Origin: Leptolyngbya sp. Heron Island J
Lineage (GTDB): Bacteria > Cyanobacteriota > Cyanobacteriia > Phormidesmidales > Phormidesmidaceae
DNA: 64,000 nt
Direction of reading: 5' to 3'
Assembly (NCBI RefSeq): GCF_000482245.1
Contig: NZ_AWNH01000012.1
Coordinates: 1 to 64,000 of the forward strand
Shown: piece by piece, positions 27,570 to 61,263 of the stretch
Position numbering within the stretch: the stretch's first letter is position 1
How the letters are laid out: each line of letters begins with the position of its first letter
Program-made: the position numbers and the translations under genes
The notes under the pieces: model-generated
The model's input: the letters and a program-made list of their open reading frames with translations, nothing else
Databases searched by the model: none
What the model was told of the DNA's origin: nothing

Positions 27570-27983
27570 CTTTAATGTAGATCGTTTTTAACACAGACCA
27601 GAGTAGATATCTGGGTAGAGATTGTAGCAATCCCATTGAGTTGTGCGAGTCACCTTGACGGGCTTTTCCTCACGGCAAGGGCCAACGCTCTCCGACCAAG
27701 AACAGCGCCAACCCTCGTTGCCTCTAGGTTTCCTGAAAGCCTATGGACATTCCCGAACACCTCAGTTAAGCTAGGCGAAACCACCTCATTTTCTGAGGGG
27801 GTCTGCCGAACCTCGAAAACTGCATTATTTCGTTGACCCCCTCAGATACATTACTGGGCAAGGGCTTCAGACGTTTTCCACAGGGCTTTATTGGGAATAG
27901 CTTCTATTTATCTGGGCTTTTCCAGACCCCCTCAGAAATCGGGTTCTAGAGGACTTGTATAGTAAGGGTTCCAGAAGGTGGGG
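27570..27983 (+). promoter_or_regulatory. Probable leader of CRISPR array 1
   Basis: A gene-poor stretch directly upstream of the first repeat. The inverted motif CTGAGGGGGTCTG / CAGACCCCCTCAG occurs near 27793 and 27927, plus a GACCCCCTCAG near 27834. The last repeat of the array is the degenerate one, so this side is the leader end. Confidence 0.5.
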
Positions 27984-28304
27984 GTTCAGAACCCATTACC
28001 CCGCAAGGGGACGGAAACTTCTCGCCATCGGTGTGGTCGCACACCTCTGTGTTTTGTTCAGAACCCATTACCCCGAGAGGGGACGGAAACAAATAACCTC
28101 AGTTTAAGTAAAACTGCTCAGGAGGCTGTTCAGAATCTACTACCCCGAGAGGGGACGGAAACTAGTGCATGTTTTCCTTAACCTCTGTGTAGGGGGCAAG
28201 GGTTTAGATCCCATTACCCCGAAAGGGGACGGAAACGCGATCAGATTAATCTCTCCCATCATGAACTTTAGGGGTTCAGACCCCACTGCCCCGAAAGGGG
28301 AAAC
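27984..28304 (+). CRISPR. CRISPR array 1: five repeats, four spacers
   Basis: Repeats of 35 bp start at 27984, 28056, 28128, 28202 and 28274. They contain the stem CCCCGAGAGGGG and end in GACGGAAAC. Spacers are 37, 37, 39 and 37 bp. The loop and 5' half vary between repeats (GCAA, GAGA, GAAA loops) and the last copy lacks ACGG, so the array is decaying. Repeat shape and the GAAAC end resemble cyanobacterial type III-associated repeats. No cas gene was seen in the window, so processing would have to be in trans. Confidence 0.9.
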
Positions 28305-28686
28305 TACCCACACAAAAACAGGGCATACGCATGACGCACGCCCCTTCTGAATTCCTATTGTTCATGTGTCAGGCTTGGTGAATATCTAAGCCGCCACCAG
28401 CCTTAATAACCAAATACCCCACCCCCGACCTTAGTCTCGTATCTCAGCCCCAAAGCCTCCCAAATGCTCCACTAAGGTCTGACCGACAATGAAGGACGAT
28501 GCCACGACAGAAAGTCTTTAGGAAATATACAGAACCTTTCAGGCGATCGTTTAAGGCTGCATGGTAGACCGAAATATTTCAATCTAACCAATTGTTAGGC
28601 TCCAAGTGCATTTGTAGAGTAGTAGCTTCCACATATCGGATTTGTGTTTATCATTCAATTGCTGTGAGATTATTGGAAGGCTTCAG
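28305..28686. other. Gene-free stretch after CRISPR array 1
   Basis: No open frame with a ribosome binding site was found. The AT-rich end near 28560-28680 probably carries the promoter of the following membrane gene. Confidence 0.4.
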
Positions 28687-35290: not shown

Positions 35291-35390
35291 TTAGGACAGA
35301 AATGAGAATAAAAAATGAGGATTCTGCTCAAGCGATCGCAGCACTAGAAATTATTGAGGCTGAGTAGTAGATCTAATAGCGCTAGCTAAA

Positions 35391-35730
35391 AACCCTCCGA
35401 TTTCAACTGATCGGTAAAGGTGATGCAAGAGCTTACCGAAATGGGTAAGAAAAATGGACTATTATTTCCAACTATTCCGATTTCAACAATCGGTAAAGCG
35501 TGGTGATGGGTAAAGGAAGAATGGAAGAGTTTCTTTCATTCTTCCAACTATTCCGATTTCAACTAATCGGTAAAGTGAACGAAGCTAGCGTAGTAAGCTA
35601 TGGCCATCCAGACTATAGCTAGTTTCCAACTATTCCGATCTGAGTCGATCGGTAAAGCAAGAGCCCGAAGAAAGTGAATTGCAGCAGCACAGAGGTTTCC
35701 AACTATTCCGATCTGAGTCGATCGGTAAAG
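35391..35730 (-). CRISPR. CRISPR array 2: four full repeats plus one truncated
   Basis: Repeats of 34-35 bp lie at 35465-35498, 35541-35575, 35623-35657 and 35696-35730; a truncated copy spans about 35391-35418. On the minus strand they start CTTTACCGATC and end GAATAGTTGGAAA, similar to cyanobacterial TTGGAAAG-type repeats. Spacers are 38-47 bp, unusually variable. Two repeats carry a GATCTGAGTCGATC centre and the left ones GATTTCAAC. The degenerate end is on the left, so the leader should be on the right. No cas genes are near. Confidence 0.85.
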
Positions 35731-51327: not shown

Positions 51328-51758
51328 GGCCTGCTCTCCATTGAATGCACGAACTGAGGCCGCCTGCACCCTAGGTGGCCTTTGATGTTTTAAGTTCCCC
51401 TTGCGGGCTCATACAATCTTGAGCTTGTCAGCGAGTTTTCGCAAACTTTCCTAGCGAGTTTTCACAAACTTTCCTAGCGATAATATTGGCTTTTCACCAA
51501 AAAGATATAGATAATTTTAGGTTTTCCAGAGAATATTCTTCACAGGAGATAAATCTCTCTTTATCCCTGTTTTCAAAGCAGCATTGGGCACCCTATAACT
51601 AACCACAGGATGCCGCCCATGACCAAACCAAAGCCACACAAACGACCCCGCAATGGCGGAAATGGGTGACGTTCGTTATTGCTGTGATTACCTGGCCTTG
51701 GACGGTTGCTGAGCGGGTGAGGCGGGGGGTATATGGGCGGAAGTATCGGAGGTAGGAG

Positions 51759-52686: not shown

Positions 52687-53367
52687 TTACTCAGCCTCTG
52701 ACAGTCGTTTTATCAGGTCGGCTTTCTTAAGCTTGGAGTAGCCTGTTATCCCTCGTTTCTTCGCCCTTTTCTTTAGCTCTGTGGCAGTGAATGTATCAAG
52801 AAGTATAGGATCAGTGATCACCTCAGGTAGAGGTTCGGGCTCTAAGTAAAAAACCTTTCTCAGTTCCTTGAGCTTCCCTTTTGTAATTCTGCATTTTAAT
52901 TTGGTAATTGGCTCCAGAGTCTTCCAGTACTTACGTGGAGCGCTGTCAATACGTCCAGCAGTTGTAGCTACACTAACTCCCTTAAGTAATGTCCCAGGCT
53001 GCTTAATCAGATAGTCGAGGGCAGCCGCTATCTGTTTGTGTGTAGCCTTAGATAGGTTAATACGAGGTACTGTGTCATGGGCTAGCACAGAGGATACCAA
53101 GGCAGTATCAGCAGAGTCATCAGCAATGATGCACCAGGCTTTCTCAAGTCCAGCTTCTGCGATCGCTTCGTAGACAAATGCATTCGCTACGACTTCATAC
53201 TGGTCAACTCCAACCTCTTTAACAATGAGAGGTATCCAGTTTCGCTGACTTACTCGAAGCAAACTACTAGCCTCATGAATTAAAAACTCATGAGCTTCTG
53301 TCAACGGACCTGGCTCAATTTCGTCAAATGGCAAACACATAAGATTGCCAATATCTCTTATCCCCAT
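52687..53367 (-). CDS. parB: ParB-like centromere-binding protein with SAP/Rho-N tail
   Basis: The 226-residue protein overlaps parA by 10 bp. Residues about 40-85 (NWIPLIVKEVGVDQYEVV and the segments after it) resemble the N-terminal ParB/Srx fold. The centre is helical. Residues 190-226 (TATELKKRAKKRGITGYSK then KKADLIKRL) look like a SAP or Rho N-terminal nucleic-acid-binding motif. Together with ParA it would segregate the replicon. No CTP-binding motif is confirmed. Confidence 0.6.
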   Translation of the reverse strand: MGIRDIGNLMCLPFDEIEPGPLTEAHEFLIHEASSLLRVSQRNWIPLIVKEVGVDQYEVVANAFVYEAIAEAGLEKAWCIIADDSADTALVSSVLAHDTVPRINLSKATHKQIAAALDYLIKQPGTLLKGVSVATTAGRIDSAPRKYWKTLEPITKLKCRITKGKLKELRKVFYLEPEPLPEVITDPILLDTFTATELKKRAKKRGITGYSKLKKADLIKRLSEAE

Positions 53368-54698
53368 AACAAATAATCCTTAATGAATTTTCTATATTGC
53401 TGAAATGCGACTTTTGAGCAAAATGCAGCTGGTGTGTGGAGAAAATCGGCCTTAGCAATGTTCGCCATATAGCGAATTTTCACCATTTCAAAATCTCGAC
53501 GCCCCTTAGTCCATTTAGGGTAAAAATATGGTCTCAAATTAAATCCTTTTTTCTTCCCATCCTTGATGACCTGTTCAATAGCCTTATGCATAATTTCAGA
53601 CAGGCTAGGTGAAATTTTAGATGGATGGCTATTAAAAAGTACTACTAAAGGTATAGGCCCAGCATCCCCAAAGCTCCTTCGTCGCCCCTTCTGTATTTCT
53701 GGTAATAAATCAGTGACTGCCATGCCTGCATTTTGCAGGGAATGGAGATTATCATGGCGCGCTGGCATCAGGACGACATCTGCCGCATAAACAGCCTGCT
53801 GAGAAAAAACTCGCCAGTTTGGAGGTACGTCGATCAGTATGTAGTCGTACTTAGTCTGTTTTACTGATTCCAGAGTCTTTAATAGCGAATGATCTTTAAC
53901 ATACTGCCTTAATCCAACTTCATCGGCTTCAGAAACCATTTTCGCGTCGGAAAGGATCAGGTCAAAGCCAACTTTTTCCCCACTTCGAAATTTATACTCA
54001 TAGGATGTAATGCTTTCACAAATATCAGCATTCTTTTCTGTTAACATTCGCCACATCTGCCCTTGAGATGGAGGCAGACCCAAGGCATCGCCTAAATCCT
54101 GCTGGTTAGGATCAAAGTCAATAGCAAGCACACGCTTACCAAGAACCGTTAAAGCTGCAGCCAAATTGATGGTAGTAGTGGTTTTGCCAACACCACCTTT
54201 ATTGTTGTAGATCGCTATCGTTAAACCCCTGGGGACGATATTCATCCGCTCACGAAACTTTCTAGCAATTCCGTCTGGGTCTGAGCACTCCAAGCACGGA
54301 GTCACTGGGTATATAACCTTTCCGTGTTTTCGGAATAGCTGAGCATGCAGCGAGTTTGTAATGATACCCCATTGCACCGACTCGGATTTATCGCCCAAGA
54401 GGTAGCGCTTCAACTGATCTACAACTTTCACATATTCCTTTTGACCTTCAGCCAAATCTTTGTCTTGCCCCTTGGTTTCGACATATAGATAAGGATCACG
54501 TCTTGTGTCAATAAACCTGCCATTTTCTGTGCTTTTGCCTGCTGCATGGTCAACCGGACCCGCTCCCGTAGGGAACTGAAAGAATATGTCGTCCTTAGTG
54601 AAACCTAAAGCCTGAATAAAAGCAGGGGTAAATTCGCGCTCAACAAATGCTTCTTCTGCCCCATCAGGCAATTGATCGATAATTTCCTTTAAACTCAT
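53358..54698 (-). CDS. parA: ParA partition ATPase with N-terminal PD-(D/E)XK-like domain
   Basis: In the 446-residue protein, residues about 1-150 resemble the type I restriction R-subunit N-terminal domain (HSDR_N). Asp68 in RRDPY is followed by YVETKG, giving Glu74-x-Lys76, and an LFR..G segment. Residues 160-446 are a ParA ATPase: NNKGGVGKTTTT with signature Lys167 and Lys172, a Walker A' LAIDFDPNQQDL and a Walker B ILIDVPP. ParA proteins position and separate replicons on the nucleoid. The nuclease-like domain is not part of usual ParA and may bind DNA or act as a guard. Confidence 0.8.
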   Translation of the reverse strand: MSLKEIIDQLPDGAEEAFVEREFTPAFIQALGFTKDDIFFQFPTGAGPVDHAAGKSTENGRFIDTRRDPYLYVETKGQDKDLAEGQKEYVKVVDQLKRYLLGDKSESVQWGIITNSLHAQLFRKHGKVIYPVTPCLECSDPDGIARKFRERMNIVPRGLTIAIYNNKGGVGKTTTTINLAAALTVLGKRVLAIDFDPNQQDLGDALGLPPSQGQMWRMLTEKNADICESITSYEYKFRSGEKVGFDLILSDAKMVSEADEVGLRQYVKDHSLLKTLESVKQTKYDYILIDVPPNWRVFSQQAVYAADVVLMPARHDNLHSLQNAGMAVTDLLPEIQKGRRRSFGDAGPIPLVVLFNSHPSKISPSLSEIMHKAIEQVIKDGKKKGFNLRPYFYPKWTKGRRDFEMVKIRYMANIAKADFLHTPAAFCSKVAFQQYRKFIKDYLLWG

Positions 54699-57591: not shown

Positions 57592-57768
57592 ATGAGACAA
57601 GAAACCGCCGATAACGGGGGACGGGTTTGTGTGCTTGAAATTCCTCCGAGCACAGTGAACTTCGACCACATTAGCGATGAAGAGAAGCTTGAATTATGGG
57701 CTGTTCACCGTGGCTCCCCAGCAGGCATTAGACAACGCCTCATCGATTTTCAGGGGGTAGGGTTGTGA
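57592..57768 (+). CDS. 58-residue small protein before the initiator gene
   Basis: ATG at 57592; the stop overlaps the GTG of the next gene, giving coupling. Mixed composition, function unknown. Confidence 0.5.
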   Translation: MRQETADNGGRVCVLEIPPSTVNFDHISDEEKLELWAVHRGSPAGIRQRLIDFQGVGL

Positions 57769-58898
57769 GAGAAACCTGTATTCGCCATCAACCAAAACAA
57801 ATAATGGCAGTCATTAGGCAGGATTATTACGACATAACCGCTGATGCCGTAGCTTCAGCATTGATCAATTTTTTTGAATTTCGTGCCAACGGCGTTATCT
57901 CAAGCAACTCCAACCAAGCCAATTCGGAAGATATACCTCTAGGGGAAATATCAATAAAAGAGTTTCAAGAGGCTTTGCTAGGGCTTTCTACGGACAAGCA
58001 AATTAGAAAGCGACTAGATTATCTCATACAGCAAAAAATCGTCTCTAGAGCAAAAAAAACAGGACGTGTAACTGAATTTGTATTTCATATAGGAAACACG
58101 CAGAGCGCCATCGACCACCCCGGTCAAATGACCGCACCATACCCCGGTCATTTGACCAAAGAACCCCGGTCAAATGACCAAAGAACCCCGGTCAAACAAC
58201 CGCACCAACCCCGGTCAAATGACCGTTCATCTATATATAAGAATAATTTAAAAGAAAAAGAAGAAAGAAAGAAGGATCCTTCCCCTTTTGAAAAGCCTGC
58301 TACGCAGCCCGAGGAAATCAATTCTTCTGTTCAGATTAATGAACAAAATTCTGGGCAAACGGGATCGGCTTCGCTTGATTTGGGTCAGGCTAAATCGGTA
58401 GGCAAAGATCAAGGGGGTAATGTTCCGCCGCCGCCAAAAGTTGGCGTTGTTACGTACAAGCAGTCTCCCGAGTCGATAGACCTTTCTGAGCTGTGGGAGG
58501 TTGCAGAGTACGAGGCCAAAGCCAAGGCTAGAGCTTTAGCTCCTGGCCACAGACATCCAGCTTTGGTCGCTCATGGGTTGGGAGATATCTGGGTAGGGCC
58601 AAACGTAAGCGATTTTGATGCAGGATTGTTGGCATTAATTGCTAAAAACAAAAAAACTGGCAATCATCCCGACAATCGGGCCGCTTGCGTGACGTTTATC
58701 ACTAGGGCGATCAGGGATGCTGACTGGGCAAAGCTTGAGGCTCTTTGGCTGGATGTCCAACAGAAAACGCGACAACAGCCAGCTTTGACCGTCATTGATG
58801 CGCCTTTACCAAAGAAAGAAACAGGGAAATATTCACCTCCGCCTGAAAAAAATTGGGCAAAGAACGTACTAGGAGCAAGATATCGAAATGCAGGCTAA
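57765..58898 (+). CDS. Replication initiator, lambda-O-like in layout
   Basis: The 377-residue protein has an N-terminal DNA-binding-like region (about 20-110) with winged-helix character and a long polar linker (about 117-235). The C-terminal domain (235-370) is suited to helicase loading. The linker is encoded by five iterons and an AT-rich tract. The gene runs directly into dnaB. This mirrors lambda O followed by P or DnaB, where the origin lies inside the initiator gene. Start is a GTG overlapping the previous stop. Confidence 0.7.
   Translation: MRETCIRHQPKQIMAVIRQDYYDITADAVASALINFFEFRANGVISSNSNQANSEDIPLGEISIKEFQEALLGLSTDKQIRKRLDYLIQQKIVSRAKKTGRVTEFVFHIGNTQSAIDHPGQMTAPYPGHLTKEPRSNDQRTPVKQPHQPRSNDRSSIYKNNLKEKEERKKDPSPFEKPATQPEEINSSVQINEQNSGQTGSASLDLGQAKSVGKDQGGNVPPPPKVGVVTYKQSPESIDLSELWEVAEYEAKAKARALAPGHRHPALVAHGLGDIWVGPNVSDFDAGLLALIAKNKKTGNHPDNRAACVTFITRAIRDADWAKLEALWLDVQQKTRQQPALTVIDAPLPKKETGKYSPPPEKNWAKNVLGARYRNAG
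58118..58275 (+). other. Putative replication origin: five iterons plus AT-rich tract
   Basis: The unit CCCCGGTCAAATGACC occurs at 58118, 58142 (reversed centre), 58164, 58186 (imperfect) and 58209, at 22-24 bp spacing. Its core GGTCAAATGACC is nearly palindromic. It is followed at 58225-58275 by an AT/purine-rich unwinding tract. Confidence 0.75.
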
Positions 58899-61263
58899 CA
58901 ACACCACACCCATTCTCCCGTTTCGGTCACCTAAGACGGCTGACCCTGCCAACATAGACGCTGAGTACGACATCATCGGCGCAATCCTGGTTGACCCAGG
59001 CGCGATCGCTCGGATTGCTCACAAGCTACCCCCAGAGGCGTTCTATGTGCACAACCACCGCACCATCTACCAGGCTTGCCTAGAGCTTCACAGGGATGGC
59101 CAAATTGTTGACCTGATGACCGTATGCACTGCGCTGGCCAATAACAAGCAGTTGGATAAGGTTGGCGGGAAGAGTGCGATCGCGCAAATGTTTGATCTAT
59201 GCCTAACGTCGGCAAATGTCGAGCAACACGCCGATTTAATTCTTGAAAAGCACTTTCGTCGCTGCATGGCCCGTGCAGGCGCAGAAATCCAAGAGATTTC
59301 CAAAGATGTCAGTCGGGGGTTGGGTGATTGCCTAAGTGAAGCTCAGAGGTCACTAGGCAGACTTTTGGAATTGGGCGTTAGTGAAAGCAGTGTTATCAAG
59401 CTTGACCAGGTAGTTGCTTTGAATATTTGCAAAACTGAAGACGCAGCTGATGACAAGATCCCTAAAGGCATCCCGACTGGTTTTTATGACTTAGACGAAA
59501 TGCTTCGTGGAGTAAAACCAGGTGAGCTAATTATCTTGGCTGGTCGTCCGTCGATGGGTAAATGCCTTGGTAAAGGCACCAGGGTTGTGATGTTTGATGG
59601 AACCCTTAAGGCGGTTGAGAATGTTGCCGTAGGTGATTTGCTAATGGGTCCTGATTCAAAGCCGAGGAAGGTATTAAGCTTGGCTCGTGGAAGAGAAATG
59701 ATGTATTGGGTCAGGCAAAAAAGAGCTATTGACTATCGAGTAAATGAAAGTCATATTCTGTCTCTTAAATACAGTGGAGATAATGGGACAATCAAGCATG
59801 GTGACATTTTTAACGTCTCTGTTAGGGGATATCTTGATAAGTCTCAACGATTCAAGGAAAGAGCTAAGGGGTACAAAGTTGCTGTAGATTGGCCAGACCA
59901 GCCACTTAAGATCGATCCTTATCTGTTGGGTGTCTGGCTTGGTGATGGCTCCACCGGAAAGGGTTCAATTCATAACCCTGATCCTGAGATAGAAAACTTT
60001 TTGCGGGACTACTCAAGTAAAACTGGCTGTGAGTATCGTTGCTACGACAGAGAAAGTTGCCCTGAGCATGTTCTGATTAATGCGTCAAACGCTAAAGGGT
60101 TATGGACGTTGTTGGGGGAGTTGGGCTTGCAAGGCGATAAGCGTATACCAGACAGCTATGTCGCAAACTCAATAGACAAACGGATGAATTTGCTCGCAGG
60201 GCTTTTGGATACAGATGGATATTATTGCAGTAAGTTCAATTGCTTTGAAATCACTCTGAAATCGAAGATTTTGTCTGAGCAAGTCAAGTATCTGGCAGAC
60301 ACCCTTGGTTTCAGAACTAGCCTCAATTCAAAGCAGGGGACTATCAAGGAGGTCAACTTTTCCGGTACGTACTACCGAGTCAGGATCTCTGGAGATCTTG
60401 ACTCTATCCCAACTAAAGTCGAAAGGAAGCAGGCCAGAGCACTAAAGACTAAGCGTGACTGGAGAAATACTGGCGTATCTGTAGAAAAAGATTGCGTAGA
60501 CGATTACTACGGGTTTGAGATTGACGGAGATCATCTTTTCTTGCTTGAAGATCTGACCGTTACTCACAATACAGCTGGGTTGGTTAACGTGGCTGTTAAT
60601 GTCGCAGCTCAGGGGCGCGGGGTCTACATTTCAAGCCTTGAAATGAGCGCTGAGCAACTTGGTTATCGCATTATGTCGGCTGACTCTTCTATTGAGTCTG
60701 GGAGGCTACGAGATGGCAAAGTAGGGCAACATGAATGGCCAAGCTTAGGTGAGTCAGTGACAAAGTTAGCCGGTCTTCCCGTCTGGATTGACGATAGTTT
60801 TCGCCAGACACCTGAGACTGTTGCAGCTAATATTCAGCGAATCAATGCTGAGAATGGGCCAGGCACGATCAATCTGGCCATGGTGGACTACATCCAGCTT
60901 ATGGGAGATCGCGGTGCAGGCAATCGAGTCGCAGAACTTGGAAAGATCTCCCGTGGATTTAAAGGAATGGCGAAGGAGCTAGGGCTTAGTGTCTGGACGT
61001 TGTCTCAGCTGTCGCGTGGTGTTGAGTCGCGCAATCCGAAACGACCTCTAATGAGTGATCTGAGGGAATCTGGAAATATCGAAGAGGATGCAGATGCCGT
61101 AATCCTCTTGTACAGGGAGGATTATTACGATCCTGACACGCCTGACAGAGGGCTTGCCGAATGGATCGTTGGCAAGAACCGCAATGGTCCCACAGGTACG
61201 GTCAAGTTGTTATTTGAGCCTGCTTTCACCAGATTCCGTAACCTAGCGCCAAGGATTGGGTAG
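58888..61263 (+). CDS. dnaB: DnaB-type replicative helicase interrupted by an intein
   Basis: The 791-residue precursor holds a DnaB helicase of about 455 residues after splicing. It has the N-terminal DnaB domain (about 22-130), the linker, and the RecA-like core with P-loop GRPSMGK broken at Lys225 by an intein, then AGL after the insertion. Later motifs include LAMVDYIQLM and SQLSRGVESRNPKRPLMSDL. DnaB unwinds DNA at the fork and would be loaded by the initiator encoded just upstream (11-bp overlap). The host helicase cannot work until the intein is removed. Confidence 0.95.
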   Translation: MQANNTTPILPFRSPKTADPANIDAEYDIIGAILVDPGAIARIAHKLPPEAFYVHNHRTIYQACLELHRDGQIVDLMTVCTALANNKQLDKVGGKSAIAQMFDLCLTSANVEQHADLILEKHFRRCMARAGAEIQEISKDVSRGLGDCLSEAQRSLGRLLELGVSESSVIKLDQVVALNICKTEDAADDKIPKGIPTGFYDLDEMLRGVKPGELIILAGRPSMGKCLGKGTRVVMFDGTLKAVENVAVGDLLMGPDSKPRKVLSLARGREMMYWVRQKRAIDYRVNESHILSLKYSGDNGTIKHGDIFNVSVRGYLDKSQRFKERAKGYKVAVDWPDQPLKIDPYLLGVWLGDGSTGKGSIHNPDPEIENFLRDYSSKTGCEYRCYDRESCPEHVLINASNAKGLWTLLGELGLQGDKRIPDSYVANSIDKRMNLLAGLLDTDGYYCSKFNCFEITLKSKILSEQVKYLADTLGFRTSLNSKQGTIKEVNFSGTYYRVRISGDLDSIPTKVERKQARALKTKRDWRNTGVSVEKDCVDDYYGFEIDGDHLFLLEDLTVTHNTAGLVNVAVNVAAQGRGVYISSLEMSAEQLGYRIMSADSSIESGRLRDGKVGQHEWPSLGESVTKLAGLPVWIDDSFRQTPETVAANIQRINAENGPGTINLAMVDYIQLMGDRGAGNRVAELGKISRGFKGMAKELGLSVWTLSQLSRGVESRNPKRPLMSDLRESGNIEEDADAVILLYREDYYDPDTPDRGLAEWIVGKNRNGPTGTVKLLFEPAFTRFRNLAPRIG
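59563..60570 (+). other. DnaB intein with LAGLIDADG homing endonuclease
   Basis: A 336-residue insert (Cys226 to Asn561) lies between the Lys and Thr of the P-loop GRPSMGK-T. It starts CLGKGTRV with nucleophile Cys1, has an NESH block B, LLGVWLGDGS and LLAGLLDTDGY endonuclease motifs, and ends TVTHN before a Thr. All splicing residues are present, so both splicing and homing activity are expected. Confidence 0.92.

Follow-up and report, generated by a model that had tools for sequence, protein, structure and literature searches.

Where does the element carried by this stretch of DNA begin its replication? The window, meaning the whole 64-kb stretch that was analysed, is the first part of a 208,660-bp contig. 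Besides tail and head genes it encodes a phage-type regulator and a ParA-like protein, and it has a module in which an O-like gene is followed by a gene for a DnaB-type helicase. A homologue of the integrase of a related contig (G015:C2, 67,992 bp, with terminase, head protease, tail, RecT-like and integrase genes) lies just past the window (contig position 65.8-67.0 kb) and is followed by ordinary cellular genes. The element is likely an integrated prophage whose left end is cut by the contig end. According to the original prediction, its origin is formed by repeats and an AT-rich tract inside the O-like initiator gene, as in phage lambda. Judged by sequence comparison, this proposal is strongly supported by the exchange of a cassette between related elements, by viral proteins with the same type of N-terminal domain and by matches of relatives to O-like families, and replication of the prophage very probably starts inside the initiator gene.

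In regard to the repeats, the five copies of about 16 bp that had been predicted at distances of 22-24 bp were recovered as three exact copies of CCCCGGTCAAATGACC and two copies with two mismatches each, spaced 24, 22, 22 and 23 bp from start to start (Table 1). With up to three mismatches allowed, the window holds six matches to this unit against 0.47 expected, and none of 100 shuffles reached six. A search outside the gene, as originally suggested, gave no further exact copies, the 16-mer occurring three times in the 8.06-Mb genome, always within the initiator gene. By Tandem Repeats Finder score this is the strongest of the three arrays in the window. The copies are read in all three frames, as different peptides, and the spacings are not, as a series, multiples of three; because of this distribution over the frames, selection acts on the DNA, and a repeated peptide cannot be the source of the copies. 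The AT- and purine-rich tract of about 50 bp was likewise found directly after the last repeat, and among the 63,951 50-bp windows of the 64 kb it has the lowest duplex stability, as calculated with the nearest-neighbour values of the SantaLucia 1998 set.

Table 1. Features of the putative origin, the initiator gene and the adjoining helicase gene (positions in the window).
Feature	Position	Strand	Basis
O-like replication initiator gene (probable), 377 aa, GTG start	57765..58898	+	no Pfam/NCBIfam/PHROGs match
N-terminal DNA-binding domain, type A, predicted winged helix, pLDDT 72	57765..58109	+	structure prediction
Exchange cassette	57768..58290	+	no nucleotide homology to G015:C2 between 57768 and 58290
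TDKQIRKRL, residues 76-84	57990..58016	+	invariant in 5/5 type A proteins aligned
Iteron 1, CCCCGGTCAAATGACC	58118..58133	+	repeat search, spacing
Iteron 2, CCCCGGTCATTTGACC, core in opposite orientation	58142..58157	+	repeat search, spacing
Iteron 3, CCCCGGTCAAATGACC	58164..58179	+	repeat search, spacing
Iteron 4, CCCCGGTCAAACAACC, variant common in relatives	58186..58201	+	repeat search, relatives' iterons
Iteron 5, CCCCGGTCAAATGACC	58209..58224	+	repeat search, spacing
AT/purine-rich tract, likely unwinding element	58225..58274	+	least stable 50 bp of the window
C-terminal domain C1, presumed helicase/replisome contact	58416..58895	+	common to relatives with unrelated N-domains
DnaB-type replicative helicase gene, interrupted by an intein	58888..61263	+	PF00772, PF03796, phrog_19
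Intein in DnaB, Hint and LAGLIDADG	59563..60570	+	domain matches; alignment gap 59562 to 60568 against G015:C2

The gene that carries these repeats begins with a GTG codon supported by the motif MRE(S/T)C, which is conserved in relatives. Its product gave no match in Pfam and NCBIfam at E up to 1 or in PHROGs; this includes Phage_rep_O (PF04492, TIGR01610) for the N-domain and RepA_N for the protein at the same Pfam and NCBIfam limit, and the C-domain had no match in any of the three libraries. The N-domain, modelled from an alignment that included two viral relatives, is predicted to form a winged helix, and the invariant TDKQIRKRL falls in the predicted recognition helix (residues 77-89). 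A PDB search with this model returned generic winged helices only, with tied scores; the entries 4pql and 4pt7, which we take to be structures of pSK41-type Rep initiators, were level with unrelated winged helices, at Z 8.1-8.4 over 88 residues. Prediction of the full-length protein from its single sequence gave a pLDDT of 37. The C-domain has a core, ...APGHK-P--VAHG-G--W-GP---DFD..., common to the relatives found in the same order. As predicted, the DnaB gene follows with an overlap of 11 bp, with the addition of an intein, and no P-like loader was seen. The intein sits at the ATP-binding motif GRPSMGK, while the DnaB of G015:C2, otherwise about 94% identical, is without it.

The strongest evidence for the function of the repeats comes from the comparison with G015:C2. 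Nucleotide homology between the two elements is interrupted over about 520 bp, from the start codon (four bases into the gene) to the end of the AT tract, and from there on they are 94.6% identical through the C-domain and DnaB. At the corresponding place, the G015 element has about 490 bp encoding a different winged-helix N-domain together with six 15-bp iterons, CCGAATACGGA plus spacer, which are followed by an AT-rich tract of its own. On alignment of the two elements, N-domain, iterons and AT tract have been swapped as a single piece between the two lineages. Since the binding sites sit between both domains, a single recombination replaces the DNA-reading domain together with its target. 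The absence of the iterons from close homologues had been named as an observation that would speak against an origin here, and literally G015 does lack the iterons of the window; but it has another N-domain with iterons of its own, and therefore supports the idea. The GC skew of G015:C2 changes sign several times, with one switch near 60 kb, close to its iterons, which is not decisive.

The reverse combination, the same N-domain on another C-domain, was found in the viral contigs L067 and L068. Their N-domain is about 45% identical to that of the window and their C-domain is unrelated, while the gene contains six copies of GGTCAAAYRACC spaced by exactly 23 bp, followed by a purine/AT tract led by CTATATATAA, as in the window. 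Six iteron copies are also present in G053, whose whole protein is 34% identical, and nine in G485. In this small set of six type A genes, the 34 iterons share the core GGTCAAAYRACC, in which positions 1-7 and 10-12 hardly vary. Of the near-palindrome from which binding of a dimer had been proposed, GGTCAAA and ACC are thus almost constant, whereas its right arm is variable and many of the iterons are non-palindromic; dimer binding to a palindrome is possible, weakly supported by the comparison and not required by it. No iterons were found within the genes of three distant N-domain relatives (G136, G293 and G165; 25-31% identity). Two further distant type A N-domains (L086 358-1722 and L087 1456-2841) have linker repeats that are related but drifted (GGCCAAATGACC and GCCAAATGGC, respectively), and judging by these, the iteron may possibly change gradually with the N-domain.

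To what extent the N-domain predicts the iteron can be seen from 13 genes found by protein similarity, comprising six N types and two C types, with iteron patterns set by hand. All 17 pairs with the same N type also agree in iteron type, including the eight in which the C-domain differs, and no iterons are common to the 29 pairs that have the same C-domain and different N-domains. Furthermore, searches of viral contigs with iteron DNA only led to the same association: all nine type B matches fell in O-like genes with a type B N-domain, and all five type C matches in such reading frames with a type C N-domain (four clear, one weak). By these comparisons, iterons and N-domain are co-inherited. 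Tandem GGTCAAATGACC was also considered as evidence of an origin in itself and rejected, as its matches occur in non-replication contexts; in public contigs it marked operators and repeat elements, some of them near phage repressor genes, and no initiators.

Relatives of the window protein were retrieved through whole-genome searches in the same order and through N-domain alignments; a whole-protein search of phages, plasmids, viral contigs and genome contigs yielded none. The relatives within the order have the C-domain in common and differ in their N-domains. Among 386 genomes sampled across the phylum the C-domain was found in its own genome only, and viral contigs contained no relatives of it. 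A paralogue in the same genome (G000:C21) matches PF04492 at 29.0 bits (cut-off 28.7), and has iterons and a DnaB neighbour; the proteins of G015 and G059 have HTH_36-like N-domains, and several relatives match PHROGs families annotated as "replication initiation O-like" or "replication initiation protein". DnaB adjoins the initiator at three loci, namely in the window, in G015 and at the paralogue, and is absent next to it at G053, G054, G059 and the viral loci, and therefore use of the host helicase would be required in these relatives. In G055, initiator copies end at contig ends upstream of the C-domain (L055 1-693, L052 9761-10396, L053 10532-11221 and L054 7418-8053), as if the iteron arrays broke the assembly, and there seem to be four or more such elements in this genome.

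Taken as a whole, these data are best explained by a temperate cyanobacterial phage whose O-like initiator is encoded by this gene and acts at an origin formed by the five iterons and the AT tract of the linker. We hold this explanation with high confidence. The N-terminal winged helix would bind the iterons, as their co-inheritance suggests, and the assembled complex would strain and melt the adjacent AT tract, in accordance with the stability of the tract and with lambda O. The C-terminal domain would then bring the phage's own DnaB onto the melted strand, with which the presence of a DnaB gene beside the initiator gene at three loci fits, although a direct contact between the two is a guess, given that DnaB does not adjoin the initiator in several relatives.

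Alternatively, the repeats could be operators through which the N-domain or another regulator controls transcription of the O-DnaB operon, and not the start of replication. Initiators often autoregulate as well, and other genomes do have tandem GGTCAAATGACC close to phage repressor genes and in further contexts unrelated to replication. However, the repeats are placed 350 bp into the coding region, with the least stable DNA of the window immediately after them, and their surroundings show no surplus of promoter-like sites; in relatives they number five to nine, about 23 bp apart, and they are exchanged together with the N-domain and the AT tract, so that we regard a purely regulatory role as very improbable. 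We consider it very improbable that the site binds the initiator for copy control, incompatibility or partition, with the main origin elsewhere in the prophage, at 23.8, 25.6 or 51.4 kb. A ParA-like gene, two 23-bp repeats at 51430-51475 and a second very AT-rich spot near 52.59 kb would be in line with such an arrangement. On the other hand, the interval 23.3-26.7 kb, which covers the first two sites, named as alternatives in the original prediction, contains no iteron array, the site at 51.4 kb has two copies only, and lambda O and pSK41 Rep use the internal site as the origin (PMC7466680, PMC5703833). Finally, almost no credence can be given to the view that the repeats simply reflect a repetitive protein linker and do nothing as DNA: the linker is of low complexity and three iterons of L067 do encode a repeating 23-residue peptide, but the frames and spacings described above give different peptides from the same DNA, the DNA core hardly differs from element to element, and synonymous-codon shuffles with the protein held fixed fail to produce the repeats (12-mer copies numbered four, and three or more arose in 0/2000 shuffles).

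An origin inside the initiator gene has precedents in several systems. The iterons inside the gene differ between gene 18 of P22, gene 18 of phage L and lambda O, and in P22 a DnaB-type helicase is the product of gene 12 (PMC8022706). In lambda, the middle of the O gene holds the origin, in which an AT-rich tract comes after the iterons (PMC7466680), and the window shows the same order in the middle of its gene. The likeness to lambda that had been proposed holds to this extent, but the iteron sequence and the N-domain differ, there are four iterons in lambda and six in Stx phages against five here, and lambda uses the P loader with the host DnaB, while in the window the phage's own DnaB gene follows. 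Because the DnaB helicase gene adjoins and no P-like loader was seen, the window is modelled better by P22 genes 18/12 than by lambda O/P, and theirs is the closest layout we found: an O-like initiator with repeats in its own coding region and a DnaB-type helicase gene downstream (PMC8022706). The P22 genes differ from the window in that the latter has a cyanobacterial host, an intein-bearing DnaB, and N- and C-domains without detectable sequence relation to known families.

In regard to the exchange of the cassette, the closest parallel is offered by plasmids. The Rep of pSK41 has its Rep boxes centrally in the rep gene, a winged-helix N-domain, a dispensable linker and a C-domain that contacts DnaG primase; between pPR9 and pSK41, about 500 bp with the N-domain and the origin have been exchanged, while the C-domain (>97%) and the upstream sequence (99%) are kept, and the two replicons are compatible (PMC5703833). 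This is the same exchange event as between the window and G015, although those are Gram-positive plasmids and the window protein has no RepA_N sequence match. Likewise, the Nostoc plasmids pNOS3756_1 and pNSMS102 carry genes with a variable N-domain, five to six internal iterons at 22-23 bp (AGTGCTGGGGGGAACACCC) and a C-domain common to viral L067/L068. Unlike the window, they have another N-domain, another C-domain and no adjoining DnaB gene. These initiator-like genes are annotated as hypothetical or helix-turn-helix proteins.

The principle of an internal origin and of cassette exchange is thus already known from lambda, P22 and pPR9. What appears to be new, as far as Pfam, NCBIfam, PHROGs and a literature with few subscription journals extend, are the families of the N- and C-domain and the demonstration in cyanobacterial phages and plasmids, by which the principle is extended to protein families absent from current libraries. 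We lean towards the view that the cassettes form a single pool common to phages and plasmids of cyanobacteria and recombine freely onto at least two unrelated C-domains, that the domains of the window represent undescribed families in this pool, and that the incompatibility group could be changed by one crossover, independently of the recruitment of the replisome. Where cyanobacterial phages and plasmids have initiators that are annotated as hypothetical proteins, their putative origins could be located in this way, and the rule by which the N-domain type predicts the iteron could be used for origin annotation and for the prediction of incompatibility. The compact origin cassette is also potentially useful for cyanobacterial vectors.

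Other repeats were observed in the window as well. The two near-identical 23-bp direct repeats at 51430-51475 (AGCGAGTTTTCRCAAACTTTCCT), in what seems to be non-coding DNA, are separated by about 1.2 kb from the ParA-like operon (minus strand, 52687-54698) and are a candidate partition site. At 27976-28309 there is a CRISPR-like array of five units of a repeat of about 36 bp (GTTCAGAACCCATTACCCCGAGAGGGGACGGAAAC) with a period of 72-74 and a degenerate last unit, for which no match was found in Rfam. A second CRISPR-like array, at 35386-35730, consists of about five TTCCAACTATTCCGATTTCAACTAATCGGTAAAG units spaced by 73-82, its left end degenerating.
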